Positions 1 through 28,844 of a DNA stretch of 64,000 nucleotides are shown here, piece by piece. The notes beneath the pieces were generated by a model. It saw nothing but the letters and a program-made list of their open reading frames with translations, searched no databases and had not been told where the DNA came from. A program made the position numbers and the translations under genes. Within the stretch, counting starts at the first letter, position 1; each line of letters opens with the position of its first letter. Source of the DNA: Paenibacillus algicola. GTDB taxonomy: Bacteria > Bacillota > Bacilli > Paenibacillales > Paenibacillaceae. The DNA is taken from assembly GCF_005577435.1 (NCBI RefSeq), contig NZ_CP040396.1:3538501-3602500 (forward strand). Direction: 5' to 3'.

Positions 1-190
1 GACTTAGCTACACACTCTTCCCCCTGAAAAAAACATAGCTAAGCCTTCTGAACAGGGCATTCAACCCATCCTCACATCACACCCTTGACAATCATGTCTA
101 AGGTCCGAAAACGAACCCACAGCGTGACCGAGTGCCTACAGTGATAAAGGTGCAGTAGACATTACCTATTCGCTGTAAATTCCTTACTGC
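1..190. other. Non-coding left edge
   Basis: I see no gene here. An 8-bp inverted repeat (CTTAGCTA at 3-10 and TAGCTAAG at 36-43) is present, but no T-run follows on either strand, so I do not call it a terminator. Confidence 0.4.
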
Positions 191-835
191 CTAGACGACC
201 CGATTCATCACAACGCCCAGCATTCTGGCATGAACATGCTCCAGCTGCTCCCGGGCTTTCTTCAAATGCTCTTTTCTCACCTTGCCCGGCGCGGCAACCA
301 TGATCACCCCGTCACATATGGAGCCGACAATTACCGCATCCGAAGCCGCCAGTACGGCAGGAGTATCTACGAGTAGAACATCATATTGCTGCTTCAGCTG
401 CTGCAGAAGCTGGTGCATCGCCGCAGAATCAATAAGCTCTGACGGATTGCCCGGAACAGGGCCGGACGGCAGCAGATCCAGATGCTCGAAGTCGGTAGGC
501 TGCACTGCATCCTGAATACTGCAATGGCCGGTCAATAGGGAGCTCAGTCCCTGATGGTTCAGCTGAGGAAAAATGCGGTGCAGCGACGGCTTGCGCAAAT
601 CGGCATCGATCAGGAGCACCTTTTTGCCTTCCTGGGCATATGCGATCGCTAGGTTGCTAATCGTCGTTGTCTTGCCTTCTCCCCCCTGAGATGAGGTGAC
701 CATGACAGTGCGTGACTCCTGATCCTTGAAGGAGAACTGGATCTTGGTCCGCAGCAGCCGGTAGCTCTCCGCGATGGAGGATTTGGGGTTCATGGATACA
801 ATCAAACTGCTCTCATTGCTGAATCGTGGCATACT
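191..835 (-). CDS. CpsD/CapB-family bacterial tyrosine kinase (exopolysaccharide control)
   Basis: BY-kinase that normally works with a Wzz-like membrane activator to control exopolysaccharide chain length and export at the inner face of the membrane. A Walker A motif (SSQGGEGKT, about residues 47-55), Walker A' (LLIDADLRKP, about 73-82) and Walker B (VLLVDTPA) are visible. I chose the ATG at 835 (MPRFSNESS) because AGGTGAGGG lies just upstream; it overlaps the 3' end of the Wzz-like gene by 23 bases, as expected for translational coupling. An in-frame start at 898 is possible but has poorer context. The protein is 214 aa and stops directly after the P-loop domain at GVVMNRVV. The C-terminal tyrosine cluster usual for autophosphorylation is absent, and no tyrosine run follows the stop in the same frame. 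Family assignment is firm; classical autokinase activity is doubtful. Confidence 0.9.
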   Translation of the reverse strand, partial: SMPRFSNESSLIVSMNPKSSIAESYRLLRTKIQFSFKDQESRTVMVTSSQGGEGKTTTISNLAIAYAQEGKKVLLIDADLRKPSLHRIFPQLNHQGLSSLLTGHCSIQDAVQPTDFEHLDLLPSGPVPGNPSELIDSAAMHQLLQQLKQQYDVLLVDTPAVLAASDAVIVGSICDGVIMVAAPGKVRKEHLKKAREQLEHVHARMLGVVMNRVV

Positions 836-1559
836 TTCCCTCACCTGCCTTTGGTTGTTGTGGAGCTTTCTTCGACTTGAACGCCGGCTTGAGATCACTC
901 TTGGTCATACGGCCGACAGAGGCCAGGACCGGAGCTTCCATAATTTCAAGCACCTCTGACTCCGATTTCAGGGTGTCATCCAGATAATCCAGCAGGAAGA
1001 TAAACCCGATCGCCAGCACGAAGGACACCATGAAGCTGATCAAAAGGTTCATCACCGGGTTGAAGTTAATAGCTCCCGGACTGGCTGCCGGGTCGGCTTC
1101 ACTCAGAATCGTGATATTATCGATATTCATAATGCTTGGAATTTGGGCTTTAAAGACGGTAGAGACCGCATTCACGACAGCAGCGGCTTTTTCATAGGAA
1201 GTATCTTGATAGACGAGGTTCATCACCTGGGAATTGTTCGCTGAGGAAACCGAGATGCGGGCGGCCAGCTGTGATGCGCTCTCACCCAGCTCGGGGTATT
1301 GCTCGACGACTTTATTCATTACGGCCGACGACTTGATAATTTCTTTATAGGAGTTGATCAGAAAAATACTCGTTTGAATGGTGCTGGCATTCAATCCATC
1401 GCCCGACGACTGATTCACGATCAGCTTTGCATTTGCTGCATATACCGGTGTTGTAAAATAGAAGCTCTTCACACTTGCTGCCGTTAAAGCGACCACCACC
1501 ATCATGACAATCAGCCACCACTTTTTCTGGATGACCCGGAAATACTGTTTCAGTTCCAT
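813..1559 (-). CDS. Wzz/YveK-like chain-length determinant, BY-kinase activator
   Basis: Polysaccharide co-polymerase of the Gram-positive CapA/YwqC type. There is a short cytosolic N-terminus, a first membrane helix at about residues 14-35, an extracytoplasmic domain, a proline-rich approach (SPGAINFNPVMNLL), a second membrane helix at about 170-190 and a cytosolic tail (DYLDDTLKSESEVLE) of the kind that docks and activates the kinase. It is 248 aa, normal for the family. The start is supported by GGAGGG upstream. It is the first gene of a two-gene operon with the kinase, and its promoter carries an operator-like palindrome in the spacer (see 1651-1705), so the pair is probably repressed by an Xre-type protein. 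Confidence 0.9.
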   Translation of the reverse strand: MELKQYFRVIQKKWWLIVMMVVVALTAASVKSFYFTTPVYAANAKLIVNQSSGDGLNASTIQTSIFLINSYKEIIKSSAVMNKVVEQYPELGESASQLAARISVSSANNSQVMNLVYQDTSYEKAAAVVNAVSTVFKAQIPSIMNIDNITILSEADPAASPGAINFNPVMNLLISFMVSFVLAIGFIFLLDYLDDTLKSESEVLEIMEAPVLASVGRMTKSDLKPAFKSKKAPQQPKAGEGKYATIQQ

Positions 1560-1650
1560 TGGCTCGCAACCCTCCGCTAATGATTAATGCTGACGCTTGT
1601 AACTAGAGTCCTACTCCGAGGCTCCACCCGAAGTCATGTGTAAGTCTTGC

Positions 1651-1705
1651 GATACACTATGTAGATTACACACCATAATTTAAGATACAATTTGTATCAT
1701 GTCAA
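1651..1705 (-). promoter_or_regulatory. Promoter with GATAC-N5-GTATC operator (wzz-like/kinase operon)
   Basis: Read on the minus strand: TTGACA (plus 1700-1705), a 17-base spacer, TAAATT (plus 1677-1682). The perfect palindrome GATACAATTTGTATC at 1684-1698 fills the spacer, a classic place for repression. A degenerate copy (GATACACTATGTAGA, 1651-1665) lies 33 bases away, the same offset as the pair before the lasso operon. Confidence 0.75.
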
Positions 1706-1800
1706 GCTAATTTTCGTGTTTTTCTGGAATCTGGAAGTCTGTTTGGATGTAAAGGTTTTCATTTTTAGGCAATAAGCAAGCCATGGATGTAACTAGAACA

Positions 1801-1829
1801 AGCCCCGCAGAGTCTGAATCTGCAGGGCT
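1801..1829 (-). terminator. Terminator of the beta-helix protein gene
   Basis: An 11-base stem (1801-1811 with 1819-1829, one mismatch) followed on the minus strand by a short T-containing tract. It lies 20 bases after the stop of the pectate-lyase-like gene. Confidence 0.6.
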
Positions 1830-1849
1830 TCATCTTCTTTTCTGGTACC

Positions 1850-3736
1850 TTAGGTCCGGATGAGCTGCACATTGCCATTGCGTATGGCTATGCGGTAACG
1901 CTCCCCTGTCGCTTCGTCCGTCAGAATTACACCATTGCCCGGTCCCCTGATTTCAAGGGAATCCGTCATATAGCTGTGGGGAACCGGCGAGTAGGACCCG
2001 ATCTGGTCCCAGTTCACCATGACTCCTGCAATATACGTGTCCCCGGTTTCCGGAATACCCGCGATGCTAAAATTGTATAACCGTCCGGTTCGGCTGGACA
2101 TCTCCCGGCCCCGGAGGTGCTTCCACCCCGGCTCCCGCCAAGTGATTGTATCGTTAAAAATATATTCCCAGTTCTGCGCCGTCACCCGTCCCAGGGAGCG
2201 GTACAGGGAGCTGCTGCCGGTGCTCGTTTCGAGGATGAAATACTGCATCGCCAGGTTCCGTCCGGCATCCCCTTCGTACGGAAGCGAGGGTGCCTGAAAG
2301 TCAATCATAACTCCCGGAGACCGCGAACCATCCGGGGTCACCTTCAATATGACGGGATTGCGGCCAAGGACCTGCTTCATTTCATTGCTAATAGGAACCG
2401 GAACCTGCTGCGGACTGACGAGACTGATCGTACCGCCATTCGTGACAGTCCAGTTCGACAGCACCTCCGGGTTGCGCAGCAGATTGGGCGCGGAGACAGG
2501 CATCCCTGTGCGGTGCTCCCGCTCCCGCATCCGTTCGTGCAGGTCCGAAGTCCGGTACAGCGGGGTCCATTTCCGCCGGATGACAGTCTGGGGCAGATTC
2601 AACCCCGTCAGATCACTTTCCCGTTCACCGGTCAGGACTTCAATATATGCGGTGCCTTTTCCACCTGGAGCCGTGGATAATCGCAGCGCCCCCAGATCAT
2701 TATGAATGGTGACTGGATAGGTCAAGGTACCGAACCAGGCCGCATACTGCTGCTTCTCCTCCAGCCGCATCAAGGAATCCGGCAGTGCGTACTGCCAGCG
2801 GGTGGGATCGTCCGAGTACGAAGGAACGGACCAGGAGAACCCGAAGCCGAACATTCTGAGGCTGGAGGTATTCGATTTACTGAGCAGCTTGATGGCAGCC
2901 TCCCCGCACTGCTCGAATTGCACTGTGGTGTAAATGCCGTTTAAGCCATTCACAGAAGCGGCCTGGCGATAATCGTCCATCCCGCTGTCAATACATTGGT
3001 AGATCGCATAAGGCGCAAAGCCCAGATGAACCCTGTGCATATCGGCGGGAAAGCCTCCCCGGTGTCCGGCATGAAGGATGGTCCCCAGCAAAACGCCGCA
3101 GAATGCTCCGGAAATGCCGCCCCCTTGAAAGAAATAGTCCCCCGAATTGATTCTGCAATACACACCGATGAGCCCGCCCCAGGAGCAATCATAAGAGGTG
3201 ACATGGCCCTTCGTGCTGTTCAGCAGCAGTCCCGTCTTCACTCTAGCCGTCTGAATATTGCGGAAGATTGGGGTAGCACCGCCTGCGACCTCGATCGCTG
3301 CACTGCCTGCTGCAAACATCTCATAAGAGCTCTGCTCGAACAGGCTCTTGTCCACCCAGGTCGAAAGATTTCTGGAATTGTAGCCCACCATCCCGAAGAT
3401 GGAGAAGTTCTCAAATACCGCCTTGACCCCCGCATCCTGAATCCGCAGGCACGGGAGCAGGTCCGAGGACGTGTCCAGCGGGTCCCACAAAATCCGGCTG
3501 CCCTGCTGCCCGCTGTCTACATAGGGCGCTTCACCTACAATGCCGCGGCTCTGATTCTCAATAGTCTGCCGAATCCGGTAATCCCCGGACGGAATATACA
3601 GCCGGTGCCGCTTGCCGCACGCTGCCATGGCCGCCTGAAAGGCAGCCGTATCGTCAGCCTTGCCGTCGCCGACAGCCCCATACCATTTGACATTAATGCC
3701 CAGAGCCCTCATTTCCTCATCCATCGGATTGGCCAT
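1850..3736 (-). CDS. Pectate-lyase-superfamily right-handed beta-helix protein
   Basis: 628 aa. The N-terminus carries the hallmark of the Pectate_lyase_3 (tailspike/GH28-like) family: NVKWYGAVGDGKADDTAAFQ at about residues 15-34, followed by a region rich in G and N turns typical of a parallel beta-helix. No signal peptide is evident, so export would need another route, or the protein acts on polymer inside the cell. Start ATG 3736 has AAGGAGGAG upstream. It sits between exopolysaccharide control genes and VanZ, and its upstream region contains the shared GATAC-N5-GTATC operators, suggesting a role in modifying or cutting an exopolysaccharide. The substrate cannot be told from sequence; a polysaccharide lyase or glycoside hydrolase is equally possible. 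Confidence 0.75.
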   Translation of the reverse strand: MANPMDEEMRALGINVKWYGAVGDGKADDTAAFQAAMAACGKRHRLYIPSGDYRIRQTIENQSRGIVGEAPYVDSGQQGSRILWDPLDTSSDLLPCLRIQDAGVKAVFENFSIFGMVGYNSRNLSTWVDKSLFEQSSYEMFAAGSAAIEVAGGATPIFRNIQTARVKTGLLLNSTKGHVTSYDCSWGGLIGVYCRINSGDYFFQGGGISGAFCGVLLGTILHAGHRGGFPADMHRVHLGFAPYAIYQCIDSGMDDYRQAASVNGLNGIYTTVQFEQCGEAAIKLLSKSNTSSLRMFGFGFSWSVPSYSDDPTRWQYALPDSLMRLEEKQQYAAWFGTLTYPVTIHNDLGALRLSTAPGGKGTAYIEVLTGERESDLTGLNLPQTVIRRKWTPLYRTSDLHERMREREHRTGMPVSAPNLLRNPEVLSNWTVTNGGTISLVSPQQVPVPISNEMKQVLGRNPVILKVTPDGSRSPGVMIDFQAPSLPYEGDAGRNLAMQYFILETSTGSSSLYRSLGRVTAQNWEYIFNDTITWREPGWKHLRGREMSSRTGRLYNFSIAGIPETGDTYIAGVMVNWDQIGSYSPVPHSYMTDSLEIRGPGNGVILTDEATGERYRIAIRNGNVQLIRT

Positions 3737-3863
3737 CTTATCTCCTCCTTGCTATATCATAGTGAAGGCCGTGCAAAAAGGTTTGTAGTACACGCCCAGG
3801 GCCGTATCTATATTCTATGAAATTGCACCTTGATGGTTGAATCCGGCTTCTCTGCTCGTATAT

Positions 3864-3901
3864 GATACAGATTGACTGGAGATACATATTGTATCAAATA
3901 A
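3864..3901. promoter_or_regulatory. GATAC-N5-GTATC operator between the beta-helix gene and VanZ
   Basis: Perfect palindrome GATACATATTGTATC at 3881-3895 with a half-matching copy GATACAGATTGACTG at 3864-3878. A possible plus-strand promoter for vanZ is TTGACT (3872-3877), an 18-base spacer holding the palindrome, and AAATAA (3896-3901). The region is the only intergenic space between two divergent genes, so both could be controlled. Confidence 0.65.
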
Positions 3902-3919
3902 CAAAAGGAGAAGGTGTTT

Positions 3920-4354
3920 GTGCGTATTTTGTTCACAGGGCTCTGGGCCATCCTGCTCTTCATATTTACATGCTCCTTCAGCTTTCAGGACCTCATCCAG
4001 CATCAAAGCCTTGACTTCAGCTTTAATGCTTCCCCCGATTGGTCGGAGCTCACCGAACAGGATGTTCAATGGTATCGGCGCGACTGGGTGCTGCGTAAGG
4101 CCGGACATCTCCTGGGCTTCTTTCTGCTGGCACTTCTGGCCTCCGGTGGAGGCAGAAGCACGTACGCATTCGGCTTGTGCCTGCTGTACGCAGCAGCTAC
4201 CGAAATTTTGCAGCTGTATTTTTTTCGCGGTGGGCGTATTTACGATATGGCTATTGATGCTTTGGGGGTTCTTATGGCCTACCTGTGGTGCAGATTTCTC
4301 GTCAGGGTCAAATTAACCACTACTAATTTCACTAGACATAAAAAAAACACTTGA
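3920..4354 (+). CDS. VanZ-family membrane protein
   Basis: 144 aa. Hydrophobic segments include an N-terminal helix (about 1-22), a central pair containing the family signature RKAGHLLGFFLLALL, and TEILQLYFFRGGRIYDMAIDALG, followed by a last helix. This is the VanZ-like domain, known from teicoplanin resistance and from many exopolysaccharide and surface loci; the molecular role is unsettled. Start GTG 3920 is preferred over GTG 3914 because AAAGGAG at 3904-3910 is nine bases away. An operator-like palindrome lies directly upstream, and the lasso cyclase promoter begins inside its last codons. Confidence 0.85.
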   Translation: MRILFTGLWAILLFIFTCSFSFQDLIQHQSLDFSFNASPDWSELTEQDVQWYRRDWVLRKAGHLLGFFLLALLASGGGRSTYAFGLCLLYAAATEILQLYFFRGGRIYDMAIDALGVLMAYLWCRFLVRVKLTTTNFTRHKKNT

Positions 4355-4400
4355 TACAATTTGTAACTTCATGTATATTATGACCGATACTAAATGTATC
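4351..4400 (+). promoter_or_regulatory. Lasso operon promoter with two GATAC-N5-GTATC operators
   Basis: TTGATA (4351-4356), a 17-base spacer and TATATT (4374-4379) form a good sigma-A promoter. GATACAATTTGTAAC (4353-4367, one mismatch in the right arm) overlaps the -35 and spacer; GATACTAAATGTATC (4386-4400) sits at the expected transcription start. The two sites are 33 bases apart, three helical turns, which would suit cooperative binding. Confidence 0.75.
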
Positions 4401-4439
4401 TAATAAAACGTCAGGATGATCATGAAGGAGAAATGGATC

Positions 4440-6389
4440 ATGAGTGCCATCGCCTGTATTTATCGCCTGGACGGAGAACCTGTACAGGCTGGGCATGACG
4501 AACTAGTCATGGACGCCCTGAAGCTGTACCCGGCAGATCAATGCTCCGTGTGGCAGCATGAACATGTCATGCTAGGATGTCTGCTCCAGCAAATGACGAC
4601 CCAGTCTCTGGAGGAACAGCTTCCCTACCACGATTCCCGCCGCGGTCTGGCCATAACGGCAGACTGCATTTTGGACAATCGAGAGGAGCTCATGGACCAG
4701 CTGCTGATTCCACAGGAGCTGAGATCCTCCATGCCAGACAGCCAGCTCCTGCTGTGGGCTTATGAGAAGTGGGAGGGACGCATGCCGGAGCGGCTTGTGG
4801 GTGACTTCGCCTTCATCATCTGGGATCCGCGTCAGCATGTTCTCTTCGGTGCCCGGGATTTCTCCGGAGCGAGAACGCTGTATTATCATCGCGACCGGCA
4901 GCAGCTGTCCCTCTGCACCATGATTAAACCCCTGCTGTCCCTGCCCCATATACATAAAAGTCTGAACCATACCTGGCTGGCCGAATTTCTCGCCATCCGC
5001 GGTGTGTTCGAGCCGCCGGATATGCTCTCCACTGTTTATGAGGGGGTTGCCCAGCTGCCTCCCTCACATACCCTCACCGTCAGAGGAAATGACATCACGA
5101 TTCAGAAATATGACAGCCTTAGAAATATCAGCCCGCTGCAGCTATCCTCCTCTCAGGAGTACGACGAAGCTTTCCGGGGAGTCTTTCAGAAAGCGGTGAC
5201 CTCCCGCTTCCAACGGAGCCACCGCAAGGTGGGCGGCTATCTCAGCGGAGGTCTGGACTCCGGTTCCGTCGCCAGCTTTGCCGCCAAGGCACTCCAGCAG
5301 CAGCAGCGGCCGCTGCATACGTTCAGCTACGTCCCGGCCGAAGATTTTGAAGACTGGACACCCAAGCGCAGACTCGCCAATGAGCGGCCGCTGATTGAGC
5401 AGACGGTTCAGTTTGCCGGTAATATGGAGCCCAGCTACTTGAGCTTTCAAGGAGCCAGCCCGTTCACCGAGATCGATGAATGGCTGGATACCCTGGAATC
5501 CCCTTACAAATTCTTTGACAACACCTTCTGGTTCCGCGGCATTCATGAAGCCGCAAGCCAGCAAGGCATTGGTGTCCTTCTCAGCGGTGCCCGTGGTAAC
5601 TACAGTATCTCCTGGGGTCCCGCATTTGGTTATTACGCCACTCTCTTGAAGCAGCTTCGATGGGGCAAGCTTCGGCGGGAGGTTCAGCAGTACAGCTTGA
5701 ATACCGGTACCAGGCGCAAAATTATGTATTCTGTCTTGTGCCGCAAAGCGTTTCCGATCGTCAATCGGCTCAAGCCGGTGGGAACAGCTTACGAGTTTCC
5801 GCAAATGATCAATGACGCTTATGCTAAAGAAACCGGCATCTACCATCGGCTGCAGGATCAGGCCTTTATTGGCATCGGCTCTGAAGCCGAGCTGCCGGCA
5901 GATCCGCTGGAGGCGCGAAAGGTTCATTTTGAACGCATTCACATGTGGGGTACAACCGGAACGAGCAGCTCCAAGCTTTCACTTCGCTACTCTCTTTGCG
6001 GCCATGACCCTACGAATGATCTTCGTGTCATCCGGTTCTGCCTGGCAGCACCCATCGAGCAGTTTGTGCAGCAGGGCATGGATCGGGCGTTGATTCGCCG
6101 CTCCACCAAGGGCTTGCTTCCGGATTCAATCCGCCTGAATCAGCGCACGCGGGGTATACAAGCGGCCGACTCCCTGCACCGAATGAAGCCGCATTGGCAG
6201 GAATTCTTGAACGCTCTGGAGCAGATGCGGCAGGATTCGCGGATGCAGCATGTGATGAACATGCCGGCCGTAGATACCGCACTTGCCGAAGCACGGCATG
6301 GTATTGCGTCAGATCAGGCTTACCAGCCGACGTTCAAGCTGCTCATGCGAAGTCTCATTCTGCATCGATTTCTACAGCACCATATGTAA
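4440..6389 (+). CDS. Lasso peptide isopeptide-bond cyclase (asparagine synthetase-like C protein)
   Basis: 649 aa, an asparagine-synthetase homologue of the lasso C-protein type that adenylates a side-chain carboxylate of the core peptide and closes the macrolactam ring. The N-terminal glutaminase-like fold is present (GDFAFIIWDP, about 121-130), but residue 2 is Ser (MSAIACIY), so the catalytic Cys of true glutaminases is missing, as is usual for lasso cyclases. The ATP-binding PP-loop SGGLDS is at about 269-274. Start ATG 4440 has AAGGAG nine bases upstream; an in-frame ATG at 4416 has no good site. The precursor gene follows after 29 bases. The adjacent paeninodin-like precursor makes the assignment firm; ordinary asparagine synthetase B is the unlikely alternative. 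Confidence 0.93.
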   Translation: MSAIACIYRLDGEPVQAGHDELVMDALKLYPADQCSVWQHEHVMLGCLLQQMTTQSLEEQLPYHDSRRGLAITADCILDNREELMDQLLIPQELRSSMPDSQLLLWAYEKWEGRMPERLVGDFAFIIWDPRQHVLFGARDFSGARTLYYHRDRQQLSLCTMIKPLLSLPHIHKSLNHTWLAEFLAIRGVFEPPDMLSTVYEGVAQLPPSHTLTVRGNDITIQKYDSLRNISPLQLSSSQEYDEAFRGVFQKAVTSRFQRSHRKVGGYLSGGLDSGSVASFAAKALQQQQRPLHTFSYVPAEDFEDWTPKRRLANERPLIEQTVQFAGNMEPSYLSFQGASPFTEIDEWLDTLESPYKFFDNTFWFRGIHEAASQQGIGVLLSGARGNYSISWGPAFGYYATLLKQLRWGKLRREVQQYSLNTGTRRKIMYSVLCRKAFPIVNRLKPVGTAYEFPQMINDAYAKETGIYHRLQDQAFIGIGSEAELPADPLEARKVHFERIHMWGTTGTSSSKLSLRYSLCGHDPTNDLRVIRFCLAAPIEQFVQQGMDRALIRRSTKGLLPDSIRLNQRTRGIQAADSLHRMKPHWQEFLNALEQMRQDSRMQHVMNMPAVDTALAEARHGIASDQAYQPTFKLLMRSLILHRFLQHHM

Positions 6390-6418
6390 AGCATTGTGCT
6401 TGAAAGGAGGTGAATGCG

Positions 6419-6544
6419 ATGAAAAAAGAATGGAATGCTCCTACATTGGAAGTGCTTGACATGAACATGACCATGGCAGGCCCTGGCGATGCTCGTCCAG
6501 ACCTTGTACAACCGGACCCGGACGAACAGGTACACTTCAGCTAA
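6419..6544 (+). CDS. Paeninodin-family lasso peptide precursor
   Basis: A 41-aa gene with a near-ideal ribosome site (AAAGGAGGTGA). The leader is 19 residues, starts MKKEWNAPTLEVLD and ends MNMTM, with the conserved Thr at the second-last position. The inferred core has 22 residues: ring segment AGPGDARPD, then tail LVQPDPDEQVHFS. Ring closure is expected between Ala1 and Asp9. The AGPG start, the QPDPDE tail and the terminal Ser match paeninodin, whose last Ser is phosphorylated by the cluster kinase. Compared with paeninodin as I recall it, Asp5 and Arg7 replace Thr5 and Thr7 in the ring. Cleavage site, ring position and phosphorylation are inferred from the family, not shown here. Confidence 0.93.
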   Translation: MKKEWNAPTLEVLDMNMTMAGPGDARPDLVQPDPDEQVHFS

Positions 6545-6562
6545 TGCTGTCCACATGTACAA

Positions 6563-6604
6563 AAACAGCCCCTGTACCGCTTCCTCCGGGTATTCGGGCT
6601 GTTT
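6563..6604 (+). terminator. Hairpin between lasso precursor and kinase (probable attenuator)
   Basis: AAACAGCCC (6563-6571) pairs perfectly with GGGCTGTTT (6596-6604) and is followed by TCTCTTCTT. It begins 18 bases after the precursor stop. A partial terminator here would give more precursor mRNA than kinase mRNA, a common arrangement in peptide clusters. Confidence 0.6.
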
Positions 6605-6635
6605 CTCTTCTTACTTAATAGAAGGAGTGAGTGAA

Positions 6636-7598
6636 TTGTCTCAAGAATTACATTCCATCCCGATGTACAAAGCATTTGGCTTGCACATACAGAGTGAAAT
6701 TCACTTTCCGGAATTGCCGACTCTCCCTCCTGCTTCAATCCAGGCACCACATTCTTCTGAGCCGATCGATCTTTACATTGGCTATGCGGACCTTGCCAGC
6801 CAGTGGGCTTCTTACTCCCCAACGGGTGCTTATATCAACACGCCGGACACCTATATGCTGCGCATCGAAGGCCTGGCTCTGTTCGCGTGCAAGAACGGAA
6901 ACCGGATGGAGGCTTCTCCTGAGCCGGGAGCGGACCCGGATCAGCTGCGCCTGTACCTGCTGGGCACCTGTATGGGAGCGATCCTGCTCCAGCGTAAAAT
7001 CCTCCCCCTTCATGGCAGCGCTATTGAAATCGACGGCAGAGCGTACGCCATTGTCGGCCATTCCGGACATGGAAAATCGACGCTCGCCTCAGCGCTGCTG
7101 CAGCAAGGTTATCGCCTGCTCACCGATGATGTGATCCCCGTCAGCAGGGATGCTAACGGCACCTTTCAGGTTACCCCCGCCTATCCGCAGCAGAAGCTAT
7201 GGCAGGAAAGCCTGGATGTCTTCGGAATGAGCACCTCGGAATATCGTCCGCTGTTTGAGCGTGAGACTAAATTTGCTGTGCCGGTCACGTCCTCCTTCGT
7301 TCAGGACACCCTGCCGCTGGCCGGAATATTTGAGTTAGTCAAGGCAGACTGCAAAGACCTGATGCTTCAGGAAACAAGCCGGCTGGAACGGCTGTCCTTG
7401 CTATCAAGGCACACCTACCGCAGCTCCCTCCTTGAAGGATGCGGCCTGACCGCTTGGCATTTTGACATCACTGCGCGTCTGGCCTCCCAGGTAGATCTGT
7501 ACCGCGTCTGGCGTCCTATAGACCAGCAAACGATACACTCCCTGCGGAAACTGGTGCTGGACAGAGCCCGCAGCGTCTCCGCAGCGTTCTCCCAATGA
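6636..7598 (+). CDS. HPr-kinase-like lasso peptide kinase (paeninodin K type)
   Basis: 320 aa. The C-terminal half resembles the P-loop domain of HPr kinase/phosphorylase: AIVGHSGHGKSTLA at about 138-151, followed by LLTDDVIPV. Upstream of it is the LPLHGSAIEI segment typical of this kinase group. The N-terminal 110 residues are a less conserved substrate-recognition part. In paeninodin clusters this enzyme phosphorylates the C-terminal Ser of the precursor before maturation, and the neighbouring precursor does end in Ser. I chose TTG 6636 because AAGGAG at 6622-6627 is eight bases away; an in-frame start at 6489 would lie inside the precursor. True HPr kinase is excluded by context and by the divergent N-terminus. 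Confidence 0.88.
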   Translation: MSQELHSIPMYKAFGLHIQSEIHFPELPTLPPASIQAPHSSEPIDLYIGYADLASQWASYSPTGAYINTPDTYMLRIEGLALFACKNGNRMEASPEPGADPDQLRLYLLGTCMGAILLQRKILPLHGSAIEIDGRAYAIVGHSGHGKSTLASALLQQGYRLLTDDVIPVSRDANGTFQVTPAYPQQKLWQESLDVFGMSTSEYRPLFERETKFAVPVTSSFVQDTLPLAGIFELVKADCKDLMLQETSRLERLSLLSRHTYRSSLLEGCGLTAWHFDITARLASQVDLYRVWRPIDQQTIHSLRKLVLDRARSVSAAFSQ

Positions 7599-7616
7599 TC
7601 CCGGTCCTCTTCTCTC

Positions 7617-7668
7617 CACAGCCAAAGAAAACATCCAGGAGATATCCCGGATGTTCTCTTTGGCTGTG
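7617..7668. terminator. Bidirectional terminator after the lasso locus and LCP gene
   Basis: A 20-base stem with one G-T pair (7617-7636 with 7649-7668) and a 12-base loop, in the 73 bases between convergent genes. It closes the lasso operon directly after the kinase. Confidence 0.8.
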
Positions 7669-7671
7669 CTG

Positions 7672-8676
7672 CTATTGCGGTGGCTGCATATGCTCCACCA
7701 GGATGGACCGGATTCGCTGGCGTTCCTTCGCTTCCACGATATAGTACCAGATTCCGCCGATGGTCGCGCCGGAGCCCTGAATTTCGATTTGTTTTGTGCC
7801 GTGCAGGTTCTTGCGGTATTTCGTCATCAGAATCTTCATTTCCTCAAAGGTGATGTCGGTCCTCACACTGCTCCCGATCCCCTCCAGCAGCTCATTCAAG
7901 CTGAATACCGTAGACATCTGCAAGGACTTCTGAAGCACGCCGTCAACAATCTGCCGCTGCCGCGTGTTCCGACCGAGATCGCCCCGAGGATCCTCAAATC
8001 TCATCCGGGAATACGCCAATGCCTGATCACCCGTAAGCTCAATACTGCCCTGTGTAAAATGGTAACCCCCATAATCAAACGCCATCGTATTCTGAACGCG
8101 GACTCCTCCCAGCGTGTCAATGATCCGGGCGAAGCCCTCCATATTAACCTTCACATAAAAATGGACCGGTACCTGCAGGAACAATTCTACTGTGCGGACA
8201 GACATATCCACGCCGCCAAAAGCGTAAGCATGATTAATTTTGTCCACCGTTCCGTGGCCGGCAATCGCGGTTCTTGTATCGCGGGGGATGTTAAACATCA
8301 GGATGGATTCCCTGGCCGGGTTCACGGACAGCAGAATCATCGCATCCGAGCGTCCACGGTCATGCTCACGCTCATCCACTCCCATAACGAGTACGGTGAA
8401 CGGCTCCTTCTGATCCAGATTAGCCTGGATCGCCGGAACACTTTCTCCAGCCCTAATCGAAATCGCTTCCGTGTCAATGACAGCAGCCATATCCGATTGC
8501 GTGGCCTTCGGCTTGTTCCCCTTAGAGACCGGCTCCGTCTGAAGCACCGTTGGGGGCAAAGGTGTACGTTCTTCAAACATCTCATCCGCTGTTTTTTTCA
8601 CCGAATGATACATACTGTACGCATAAATCCCGGTCCCAAGCAGCAAAGCTCCCAGAACCAGGGTGGTGATTTTCAT
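7672..8676 (-). CDS. LytR-CpsA-Psr (LCP) family cell-wall glycopolymer ligase
   Basis: 334 aa. An N-terminal membrane anchor (ITTLVLGALLLGTGIYAYSMYHSV) is followed by the LCP domain, recognisable from FTVLVMGVDER, GRSDAMILLSVNP, ILMFNIPRDTR and INHAYAFGGVDM. These enzymes move undecaprenyl-linked polymers such as teichoic acid or capsule onto peptidoglycan outside the membrane. I chose ATG 8676 (MKITTL), with TGAGG upstream; an alternative TTG start adds four residues. It lies close to the Wzz-like/kinase pair and may attach the same polymer. The end abuts the shared terminator with the lasso kinase. Confidence 0.9.
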   Translation of the reverse strand: MKITTLVLGALLLGTGIYAYSMYHSVKKTADEMFEERTPLPPTVLQTEPVSKGNKPKATQSDMAAVIDTEAISIRAGESVPAIQANLDQKEPFTVLVMGVDEREHDRGRSDAMILLSVNPARESILMFNIPRDTRTAIAGHGTVDKINHAYAFGGVDMSVRTVELFLQVPVHFYVKVNMEGFARIIDTLGGVRVQNTMAFDYGGYHFTQGSIELTGDQALAYSRMRFEDPRGDLGRNTRQRQIVDGVLQKSLQMSTVFSLNELLEGIGSSVRTDITFEEMKILMTKYRKNLHGTKQIEIQGSGATIGGIWYYIVEAKERQRIRSILVEHMQPPQ

Positions 8677-8724
8677 GATTTTCCTCAAATGGGGTTGACT
8701 CCTTCCATCCCTTCCATGACCCGA

Positions 8725-8753
8725 TTCATATGTTTCTAGTCACAATTTGACAA
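8725..8753 (-). promoter_or_regulatory. Sigma-A-like promoter of the LCP gene
   Basis: On the minus strand: TTGTCA (plus 8748-8753), a 17-base spacer, TATGAA (plus 8725-8730), about 50 bases before the start codon. No GATAC-N5-GTATC palindrome is present here, so the LCP gene seems to be outside the Xre set. Confidence 0.5.
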
Positions 8754-8848
8754 AAGCAAATGTACTTTTCTGCGTAAATAGAACACGTATTTAAGTTAAA
8801 AGAACTAATGACCTACCTGCGCAAGTATAGTAAAATATATGTATTCTT

Positions 8849-9286
8849 TTATTTGCGGGGATACAGTGAAGCTCCAGACCTCCGCTCCCGCCGGGAATGC
8901 CCAAATAACGGGCTTTGATAATGATGAATACGCCGATCCACAGAGTACCGTGACATCATTCGATTTAGCATGCCGGTAATCCGGAGCTTTTGCGTTTCAT
9001 CCGCCTGCAGCTTGACGATGTAGAGCATTCGGCTCTCCCACGGCTTACTCCCTGCAATCTCCCCTTGCAGCAGGAGACGGTCTCTGGAGTCCATAAGCTC
9101 ATAGATCAGCTGGACGCGATCCGATTGAGGAATTTCCCATTCACACAGAAATAGCAGCTGCTGCGGACTGATTTCCAGCACAGTTACCTCGTGGAAACGC
9201 CCGGATATAGGAAGTGTGCCGATGGCGGCAAGCTGTATTCGAACAGATGGGCCATATTGAATGCCCGAGAACATGGAACTATCCAT
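8849..9286 (-). CDS. Hypothetical protein, possible PilZ-like domain
   Basis: 145 aa, no clear membrane segment. The stretch SVRIQLAAIGTLPISG, EVTVLEISPQQLLFLCEWEIPQ, VQLIYELMD and RMLYIVKLQ has the beta-strand pattern of PilZ domains (c-di-GMP receptors), but I do not see the RxxxR and D/NxSxxG motifs of ligand-binding members, so at best it is a degenerate one. I chose ATG 9286 with GAAGGGG upstream. It is divergent from the Xre regulator, and the space between them contains three operator-like palindromes, so it probably belongs to the same regulatory unit. Confidence 0.5.
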   Translation of the reverse strand: MDSSMFSGIQYGPSVRIQLAAIGTLPISGRFHEVTVLEISPQQLLFLCEWEIPQSDRVQLIYELMDSRDRLLLQGEIAGSKPWESRMLYIVKLQADETQKLRITGMLNRMMSRYSVDRRIHHYQSPLFGHSRRERRSGASLYPRK

Positions 9287-9343
9287 AATACCCCTTCTTC
9301 TTTCGAGATTTCTGGTATAGTACATTCAGATCATGGATACAAT

Positions 9344-9414
9344 GATACCAAATGTTTCAAGAAGATACGTTTCGTATCTAATTTCTATTTCCATATTACG
9401 ATACATATTGTATC
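9344..9414. promoter_or_regulatory. Three GATAC-N5-GTATC operators before the Xre gene
   Basis: GATACCAAATGTTTC (9344-9358, one arm mismatch), GATACGTTTCGTATC (9364-9378) and GATACATATTGTATC (9400-9414). They lie between the PilZ-like gene and the Xre gene. The last is identical to the palindrome before vanZ. This is the densest group in the window and is what an autoregulated repressor would show. Confidence 0.75.
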
Positions 9415-9525
9415 TAGTCAATACGCTTCCTTAGGATTTACGGGCAGTATATCCATTTATTTCATGGGTACTTTTTTGTTGTTAATATAAAGGTGTGATT
9501 GTTAGCTACCGGAGGAGGACCATTC

Positions 9526-9894
9526 ATGAACTACGGAGAAAGGATTGCAGCATTGCGGGAGCAGAGGGGCTGGACGCAGGAGGAGCTCGCAACTTCGATC
9601 GGCATCACCCGTGCTGCATTATCCCACTACGAGAAGAACCGGCGCAAGCCGGATTTCGAAACCTTGACCGGACTGGCAGACCGCTTCAATGTGTCGATTG
9701 ATTATCTCATTGGACGGACCGGCAACGAGAAGATGGTTATGGAGCCGGATGTCAGACAATTTGTGGATGAGCTGGAGCTATCGGATGAGGACCTGTTGAA
9801 TCGGTTCCACTTAACTGTAGATGGCCGCAAGCTGAGCGAAGAGGAAGCCCGGCGTTTCATTGCCTTCGTTCGGATGGAGCGCTCGATGAAATAA
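9526..9894 (+). CDS. Xre-family transcriptional regulator
   Basis: 122 aa. The N-terminal Cro/C1-type helix-turn-helix spans about residues 6-61 (GERIAALREQRGWTQEELATSI, then ITRAALSHYEKNRRKPDFETL), followed by NVSIDYLIGRT and an acidic C-terminal segment for dimerisation. I chose ATG 9526 because GGAGGAGG at 9511-9518 is well placed; an in-frame TTG at 9499 adds nine residues without a site. Three palindromes of one type lie upstream, and the same palindrome lies before the exopolysaccharide, vanZ and lasso genes. I infer autoregulation and control of those promoters. The palindrome resembles the operator I recall for the PBSX repressor Xre. Confidence 0.9.
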   Translation: MNYGERIAALREQRGWTQEELATSIGITRAALSHYEKNRRKPDFETLTGLADRFNVSIDYLIGRTGNEKMVMEPDVRQFVDELELSDEDLLNRFHLTVDGRKLSEEEARRFIAFVRMERSMK

Positions 9895-28409: not shown

Positions 28410-28844
28410 GTGGAGCAAGCATTTGGCGAGTATCTGAAAACACTTCGGGAAGATCAGAATCTCAGCATCAGTCAGCTATCGCAGGCGGCCGGCATTAGCG
28501 GCTCCCAAATTTCCCGGATTGAAAACGGCCTGAGAGGGATTCCCAAGCCGCAAACGCTCCGCAAGCTCGCGGAGGCGCTTCAAGCTCCTTATGAAGAGAT
28601 GATGCAGGCGGCAGGATACTGGGAGGATCTGCAGTCCTCCGAGGACGAAGACAAGCTCGTGATTCCGGAATGGGCCACCAACAAGGACAAGAGGGATTTC
28701 AAGCACCTGCTCGAGGATGACGGAGAGCTTATGTTTGATGGAATTCCGCTGGACCAGGAGGACAAGCAGCGTATCAAGGACGTCCTGACCGGACTCTTCT
28801 GGGAGGCCAAGAAAATGAACAAGCGCGGCAGGAACAAGCCATAG
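28410..28844 (+). CDS. Xre-family regulator (ImmR-like)
   Basis: 144 aa. Helix-turn-helix at about 7-62: FGEYLKTLREDQNLSISQLSQ, then AAGISGSQISRIENGLRGIPKP. The C-terminal half is acidic (SSEDEDKLVIPEWATNKDKRD). I chose GTG 28410 with AGGAG eight bases upstream; earlier in-frame starts have none. It is followed by an ImmA/IrrE protease gene, as in ICEBs1 immR-immA, where the protease cuts the repressor after DNA damage. Targets are probably the divergent arpU-like gene and itself. Confidence 0.88.
   Translation: MEQAFGEYLKTLREDQNLSISQLSQAAGISGSQISRIENGLRGIPKPQTLRKLAEALQAPYEEMMQAAGYWEDLQSSEDEDKLVIPEWATNKDKRDFKHLLEDDGELMFDGIPLDQEDKQRIKDVLTGLFWEAKKMNKRGRNKP

Follow-up and report, generated by a model that had tools for sequence, protein, structure and literature searches.

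Operators shared by exopolysaccharide and lasso peptide promoters of Paenibacillus algicola and their predicted phage-type Xre repressor

A 64-kb stretch of the Paenibacillus algicola chromosome (the window, positions 3,538,501-3,602,500 of a single-contig genome of 4,475,055 bp) carries repeated copies of a palindrome at promoters of exopolysaccharide (EPS) and lasso peptide genes and beside xre, the gene for a 122-residue Xre-family regulator. As judged from sequence, a phage-type Xre repressor very probably controls the EPS, lasso peptide, VanZ, beta-helix and PilZ-like genes through this shared operator. An earlier note on this DNA had proposed that a single Xre repressor governs both a surface polymer and a lasso peptide via one palindrome, and our analysis supports the proposal. 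The operator is rare in the genome, is conserved in trans at orthologous promoters, co-occurs with xre and is placed on promoter elements; its binding by Xre is predicted.

Two forms of the operator were used, GATACN5GTATC (exact) and a stricter 12-base form, GATACA-N3-TGTATC. Exact copies were found at window positions 1684, 3881, 4386, 9364 and 9400; the earlier note had likewise counted five with both arms intact. All nine of its coordinates for copies and near copies were recovered. The near copies at 4353 and 9344 carry one mismatch each, the one at 1651 carries two, and the one at 3864 is a half site (GATACAGATTGACTG) with three mismatches to the 12-base form. The note had seen no others elsewhere in the window; this holds for exact copies of GATACN5GTATC throughout the 64 kb and fails for near copies, as one further one-mismatch match lies at 28615. 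The pairs 1651/1684 and 4353/4386 do share the reported offset of 33 bp, and 9364/9400 are 36 bp apart. Two-mismatch matches number 25 in the window, compared with a shuffle mean of 17.6, and 4 of 100 shuffles reach 25. Because this count barely exceeds the shuffles, the signal resides in the exact and one-mismatch copies.

The whole genome contains seven exact copies, five of which fall within window positions 1-9,414 (binomial p = 8.6e-13). Chance clustering was rejected on this value, and the palindrome is not common genome-wide. With the inner bases also fixed (GATACANNNTGTATC), four genome copies remain, all between 3,520,531 and 3,547,914, a span of 27 kb. The sixth exact copy is located 18 kb left of the window (L012:12031-12045), just past the end of the EPS operon. 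It follows a TTGACA promoter-like stretch (read by eye) and precedes a small Cys-rich open frame. The seventh (G000:C1:476454) is G+C-centred, lies outside frames of at least 100 codons and has no evident link. Sites outside the regulon that deviate from the 12-base form at no more than one base were also checked, five of the 11 listed. Four (1277384, 4316195, 3493698 and 3512327) lie inside frames read as coding, and 3278376 lies between frames with no evident link. At two mismatches the genome holds 162 matches versus 54 for the reversed pattern. We gave this count no weight, since the reversed pattern does not have the same dinucleotides and the sites listed are dispersed.

The 12-base pattern and the Xre protein were each searched in the same 100 genus genomes. 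With an Xre ortholog defined as a match of E < 1e-50, 35 of the 100 carry one, the window genome included. Exact 12-base sites occur in 34 of these 35 genomes (135 sites, mean 3.9) versus 22 of the 65 genomes lacking the ortholog (28 sites, mean 0.43; Fisher p 1e-10 for presence of sites). As a control, the reversed pattern gave 4 sites in the former and 8 in the latter. For the xre loci themselves we used the best 80 among 200 relatives; these 80 are 66-88% identical and come from Paenibacillus, Cohnella, Thermobacillus and a single record labelled Neobacillus. At 75 of these 80 loci an operator with at most one mismatch lies within 400 bp upstream of xre. The reversed pattern was found there at 0/80, each of 20 scrambled palindromes at 0-1/80, and the operator in the gene body and downstream at 0/80. 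Neighbouring operators at these loci are most commonly 33-35 bp apart.

For the main ortholog test, loci were picked by protein and not by site; regions centred on sites were picked for holding exact sites and served for description only. An operator with at most one mismatch lies within 400 bp at all 18 close lasso cyclase orthologs (61-100%) and, in the same 18 genomes, at all 18 close orthologs of cpsC (68-100%), so the palindrome is kept at orthologous promoters. By coordinates, cpsC and the lasso cyclase gene are adjacent in these genomes. In 6/18, all drafts, xre lies on a different contig, which does not prove distance; in 10/18 it shares the contig with this locus but lies 44 kb to more than 1 Mb away. 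Only in the window genome and in G033 do xre, cpsC and the cyclase gene stand together. Since xre does not adjoin the locus in 16 of the 18 genomes and the operators are retained, the operator is kept in trans. Operators were also seen just before the lasso cyclase in two Cohnella loci. P. brasilensis and P. illinoisensis have lasso clusters with 45%-identical cyclases that are faced by a promoter containing an operator about 1.4 kb upstream. As a separate observation, G033 has a second, 44%-identical lasso cyclase with an exact operator just before its start (L163:6809-6823).

The placement of the operators within promoters was analysed at the same loci. In 17 of 18 cpsC orthologs the operator fills the 17-bp spacer from TTGACA to a TAAATT-like box, and the remaining promoter (L219) has an identical layout with a poorer -10. 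The copy at 1684 had been placed by the note in a TTGACA/TAAATT spacer, which we can confirm; this promoter is on the minus strand and reads into cpsC. At 18/18 lasso promoters, the window included, the first operator (at most three mismatches) merges with the -35 box (TTGATAC...), and a TATAAT-like -10 follows after 17-18 bp. Counted from the -35, 8/18 have a spacing of exactly 17 bp and 18/18 fall in once 16-18 bp are allowed. Two operators with at most two mismatches are present at 15/18 lasso promoters. Upstream of vanZ and of the small Cys-rich gene in relatives, the operator follows the -10 in many cases (read by eye). Beside xre, it fills the spacer of a promoter facing away from xre at 65 of the 80 loci. 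The divergent gene there is PilZ-like in the window genome and the cpsC of another polysaccharide operon in many relatives. One detail of the note needs correction: the copy at 9400, listed with the group next to xre, sits in a TTGACT/TAATAT promoter that is directed at the PilZ-like gene and not at xre. The sequence flanking the operators differs among the cpsC, lasso and PilZ-like promoters. The operators lie over core promoter elements, and therefore repression is indicated.

Reading by eye also revealed sequences resembling catabolite-response elements near operators upstream of vanZ (L131, L139, L147, L150, L157, L170, L172 and L180) and upstream of cpsC (L213, L216, L220, L222 and L224). 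None was noticed by eye in the window. The call relies on what we take to be the catabolite-response consensus. These elements suggest a carbon-control input.

The regulator itself has phage-type relatives. It is strongly conserved, and 12 positions of its recognition region between residues 29 and 43 (R29 A30 L32 S33 H34 Y35 E36 K37 R39 R40 P42 D43) are invariant in 31 orthologs. The best AlphaFold2 (AF2) model has a pLDDT (predicted local distance difference test) of 91 and a pTM (predicted template modelling score) of 0.62, with a helix-turn-helix (HTH) domain and a C-terminal helical part. Foldseek matched this model to arbitrium-phage repressors, DdrO, SinR and RghR. The full-length matches have a high root mean square deviation, thus only the HTH domain superposes well. 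In a PDB sequence search, the closest entry was the ICEBs1 ImmR DNA-binding domain (7t8i, E 3e-11), and 9sf2, titled as phage Phi106 repressor with AimX, aligned over Xre residues 2-119 (E 3.5e-9). The RstR family repressor model NF041951 scored 66.2 bits, below its curated cut-off of 80. A tandem operator pattern matched 12 viral contigs, and nine of them carry a related Xre repressor beside the operators, 39-52% identical to the window Xre over 60-113 residues. Four of these repressors look like PBSX Xre. Given the nine contigs, the resemblance to the PBSX Xre operator that the note had named is borne out in kind.

Short HTH-only paralogs of Xre with a nearly identical recognition region were observed in many relatives (L045, L046, L050, L052, L053, L058, L124, L126, L129, L133, L135, L140, L141, L143, L148, L152, L167 and L174). 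Most of these paralogs too have operators just upstream; the L135 paralog had none within the stretch covered. They are mostly 64-88 residues long, and five frames have 101-119 codons with an uncertain start. Several adjoin a second cpsC-cpsD-UgdH polysaccharide locus. No such paralog was found in the window genome at E <= 1e-20.

Based on these data, we infer that Xre is the binding protein and that it represses. The protein would act as a phage-type dimeric repressor on GATACA-N3-TGTATC operators. These are often paired, about 33-36 bp apart and on the same DNA face, and pairs may be bound cooperatively. Bound over the -35/-10 spacer, over the -35 or at the start region, Xre would shut off promoters of sigma-A type. 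The predicted regulon comprises the EPS operon of about 20 kb (from cpsC to the lasso genes B1-B2-D), the lasso C-A-K operon, vanZ, the beta-helix gene, the PilZ-like gene and the small Cys-rich frame. The lasso genes B1-B2-D would be read from the cpsC promoter. Upon inactivation of Xre, polymer and lasso peptide would be produced together, and the inducing signal could be a small antirepressor acting on the Xre C-terminal domain. The simplest reading is that a phage-type repressor/operator pair has been recruited to run surface-polymer genes, where the direction of recruitment is presumed. It is doubtful, if conceivable, that the Paenibacillaceae domesticated a temperate-phage immunity circuit and made it the master switch of their matrix and lasso-peptide programme, with an operator still interchangeable with that of PBSX-type phages.

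Another XRE protein, for example a resident prophage repressor or one of the short HTH-only paralogs, might be the main binder of the operators, with the neighbouring Xre secondary. The short paralogs have nearly the same recognition region and mostly operators upstream, and phage repressors use the same operator. However, the window genome, G009, G023, G032, G033 and G041 each have a single Xre match (E <= 1e-20) and all possess exact operators, which makes this explanation improbable. It is less probable still that the palindrome is an activator site through which Xre turns the genes on. XRE proteins are able to activate as well as repress, which is the general ground for considering it, but the operators occupy the -35/-10 spacer, overlap the -35 or directly follow the -10, and activation was rejected because they cover these core elements. 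Moreover, the boxes of the cpsC and lasso promoters are near consensus, and these promoters should therefore need no activator. It is hardly credible that local promoter duplication left the copies behind as relics with no regulatory function. Five of the seven genome copies do lie within 8 kb. In contrast, operators are kept in the 16 of 18 genomes with the locus away from xre, and their positions hold while the surrounding sequence diverges. This retention at loci remote from xre led us to reject the relics.

Several observations speak against control by the neighbouring Xre, or restrict it. A promoter holding an operator faces towards xre in 0/80 loci, so this layout does not demonstrate autoregulation of xre, which stays unproven. 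At five of the 80 loci (L103, L116, L120, L121 and L122) no close upstream operator was found, and G013 has an Xre ortholog without an exact site anywhere. Genomes lacking the ortholog hold their 28 exact sites against 8 for the reversed control, an excess explained in part only; two were examined, and both lie inside a coding frame. The genome counts are not independent, because genomes with Xre are related. Similarly, the nine viral contigs represent at most seven distinct elements, as three are identical over the 600 bases compared. Finally, distant lasso cyclases (47-49%) and distant cpsC homologs (42-44%) had an operator in 0/12 cases each, thus the link is not universal. This set consisted of 12 of 57 lower-identity cyclase matches plus 12 lower-identity cpsC matches, and the second G033 cyclase described above lies outside it. 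The genomes of all 24 loci lack an Xre ortholog (E < 1e-50), though G089 among them holds a 41% Xre homolog.

The regulon preferred here, that of the phage-type Xre repressor, may extend further. In the window genome it takes in the PilZ-like gene and the small Cys-rich open frame. In other genomes with Xre, sites away from the reference genes precede acyltransferases, nucleotidyltransferases and a few other genes, and two (L159 and L178) lie inside coding frames; the short Xre paralogs would belong to the regulon there as well. Specifically, we noted exact operators before Acyl_transf_3 acyltransferases, nucleotidyltransferases and a hexapeptide transferase (L169, L254, L258, L130, L134, L144, L179 and L259); one of four such nucleotidyltransferases was scanned with Pfam. 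This points to a wider polymer-decoration regulon.

Features of the window are collected in Table 1.

Table 1. Genes and operator copies at the left end of the window
Feature	Position	Strand	Evidence
cpsD, polysaccharide biosynthesis tyrosine autokinase	191..898	-	TIGR01007 above cut-off; operon extends leftwards out of window
cpsC, Wzz chain-length determinant, first EPS operon gene	813..1559	-	PF02706; TIGR01006 below cut-off
Second cpsC-promoter operator, 2 mismatches, downstream of -10, 33 bp from first	1651..1665	.	
cpsC-promoter operator, exact, fills 17-bp spacer; -35 TTGACA 1700-1705, -10 TAAATT 1677-1682, minus strand	1684..1698	.	
Pectate-lyase-like beta-helix protein, divergent from vanZ	1850..3736	-	PF12708
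Half operator GATACAGATTGACTG, 3 mismatches	3864..3878	.	
Operator, exact, between beta-helix gene and vanZ	3881..3895	.	
VanZ family membrane protein	3914..4354	+	PF04892; NF037970 above cut-off
Lasso-promoter operator, 1 mismatch, fused to -35 TTGATA (4351-4356); -10 TATATT 4374-4379	4353..4367	.	
Second lasso-promoter operator, exact GATACN5GTATC, directly past -10	4386..4400	.	
Lasso peptide cyclase (C protein)	4440..6389	+	PF00733; NF033535 E 1.3e-104, below its cut-off
Paeninodin-family lasso precursor, 41 aa	6419..6544	+	NF033524 60.1 bits, cut-off 27
HprK-like kinase of lasso cluster	6633..7598	+	PF07475 barely above cut-off
LytR-CpsA-Psr (LCP) glycopolymer transferase	7672..8688	-	PF03816, TIGR00350
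PilZ-like protein, degenerate, start possibly 9283	8849..9325	-	PilZ E 0.034, below cut-off, 1/12 family members
Operator, 1 mismatch to GATACN5GTATC	9344..9358	.	
Operator, exact GATACN5GTATC	9364..9378	.	
Operator, exact, in minus-strand promoter spacer (-35 TTGACT 9416-9421, -10 TAATAT 9393-9398), towards PilZ-like gene	9400..9414	.	
Xre-family regulator, 122 aa, proposed repressor	9526..9894	+	PF01381 (HTH_3) E 3.7e-19

The EPS operon is about 20 kb long and runs left from the window. It encodes a GalU-type nucleotidyltransferase, a sugar transferase, Wzy, a GDSL protein, glycosyltransferases, a flippase, a ManC-like protein and UgdH. At its end, 18-22 kb left of the window (L012:12192-16017), lie the genes for a lasso-type nucleotidyltransferase (NT), B1, B2 and an ABC exporter (D). 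NF033536 and NF033537 are matched above cut-off (B1 PqqD, B2 transglutaminase-like), and Pfam gave PF00005/PF00664 for the exporter and PF14907 for the nucleotidyltransferase, about 20 kb from C-A-K. No lasso gene is missing, but the set is split into C-A-K (4440-7598) and NT-B1-B2-D, with polysaccharide genes between. In P. brasilensis (L253) the lasso cluster is contiguous, unlike here. The window xre is flanked by LCP, PilZ-like and glutamate synthase genes. At the 80 xre loci, comparison with a set of reference genes identified polysaccharide, PLD-like, YitT, M23 and bactofilin genes. The AF2 model of the PilZ-like protein displays a barrel and a C-terminal helix, with BcsA (4p00, E 9.8e-4) as top Foldseek match. 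The family divergent to xre does not contain what we assume to be the canonical cyclic di-GMP motif. Membership of the protein in PilZ is weakly indicated.

We compared the system with known regulators. It is similar to PBSX-type prophage Xre in having an HTH repressor beside tandem GATACANNNTGTATC operators. It differs in its setting, with polysaccharide genes around it and a glutamate synthase gene alongside, and in having operators at distant chromosomal operons in many genomes. The closest solved sequences belong to ICEBs1 ImmR and to the phi106 repressor, whose antirepressor is AimX. An ImmA-like protease or small antirepressor gene was not noticed here, and no search was aimed at either. 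SinR of Bacillus subtilis is likewise an XRE repressor of an EPS operon, and Foldseek found 1b0n at E 2.9e-4. The SinR operator is GTTCTYT, unlike the one described here, and the present regulon differs in taking in a lasso peptide. SinR identity was rejected, with SinR chains at E 0.002-0.004, far weaker than ImmR and 9sf2.

Paeninodin clusters in capsular polysaccharide loci are described in the available parts of PMC13381572. They share with the present locus a precursor, cyclase, HprK kinase, B1, B2, nucleotidyltransferase and ABC exporter within a polysaccharide locus, and differ in that here the EPS operon separates two parts of the cluster. The same paper reports that one lasso gene and one exopolysaccharide gene of P. 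alginolyticus increase in parallel in stationary phase. In this 2026 paper, as far as available, the role of paeninodin-type lasso peptides is stated to be unknown and a biofilm role is an untested speculation. The word Xre is absent from its main text, and its passages covered name no regulator of these genes. In P. polymyxa WLY78, the pep-2 EPS operon is needed for biofilm (PMC7911366, available in part). Loci of the P. polymyxa group, L096 for example, have an operator-bearing xre ortholog divergent to a cpsC-cpsD operon, and the L096 operon probably corresponds to pep-2. The accessible text of PMC7911366 cites SinR for B. subtilis only and names no Xre regulator of pep-2. The main text of an XRE motif survey (PMC12565409), as far as available, contains neither GATAC nor Paenibacillus. 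In the partly accessible literature searched, we found neither a description of this Xre EPS-lasso regulon nor an EPS repressor of this kind for Paenibacillus.

In summary, these results put forward a candidate EPS repressor for a genus that is of interest for agriculture and for its polymers, and they suggest that a phage-type repressor and its operator have been reused for a host regulon. If the domesticated phage circuit were true, resident prophage repressors or antirepressors could cross-talk with slime and lasso production, and the short HTH-only paralogs may serve as built-in competitors on the same operators. Through the conserved operator that links lasso cyclase and EPS promoters to one predicted repressor, the role of the lasso peptide becomes testable. 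Shared control of the slime coat and the lasso peptide may thus offer a clue to what these peptides do.

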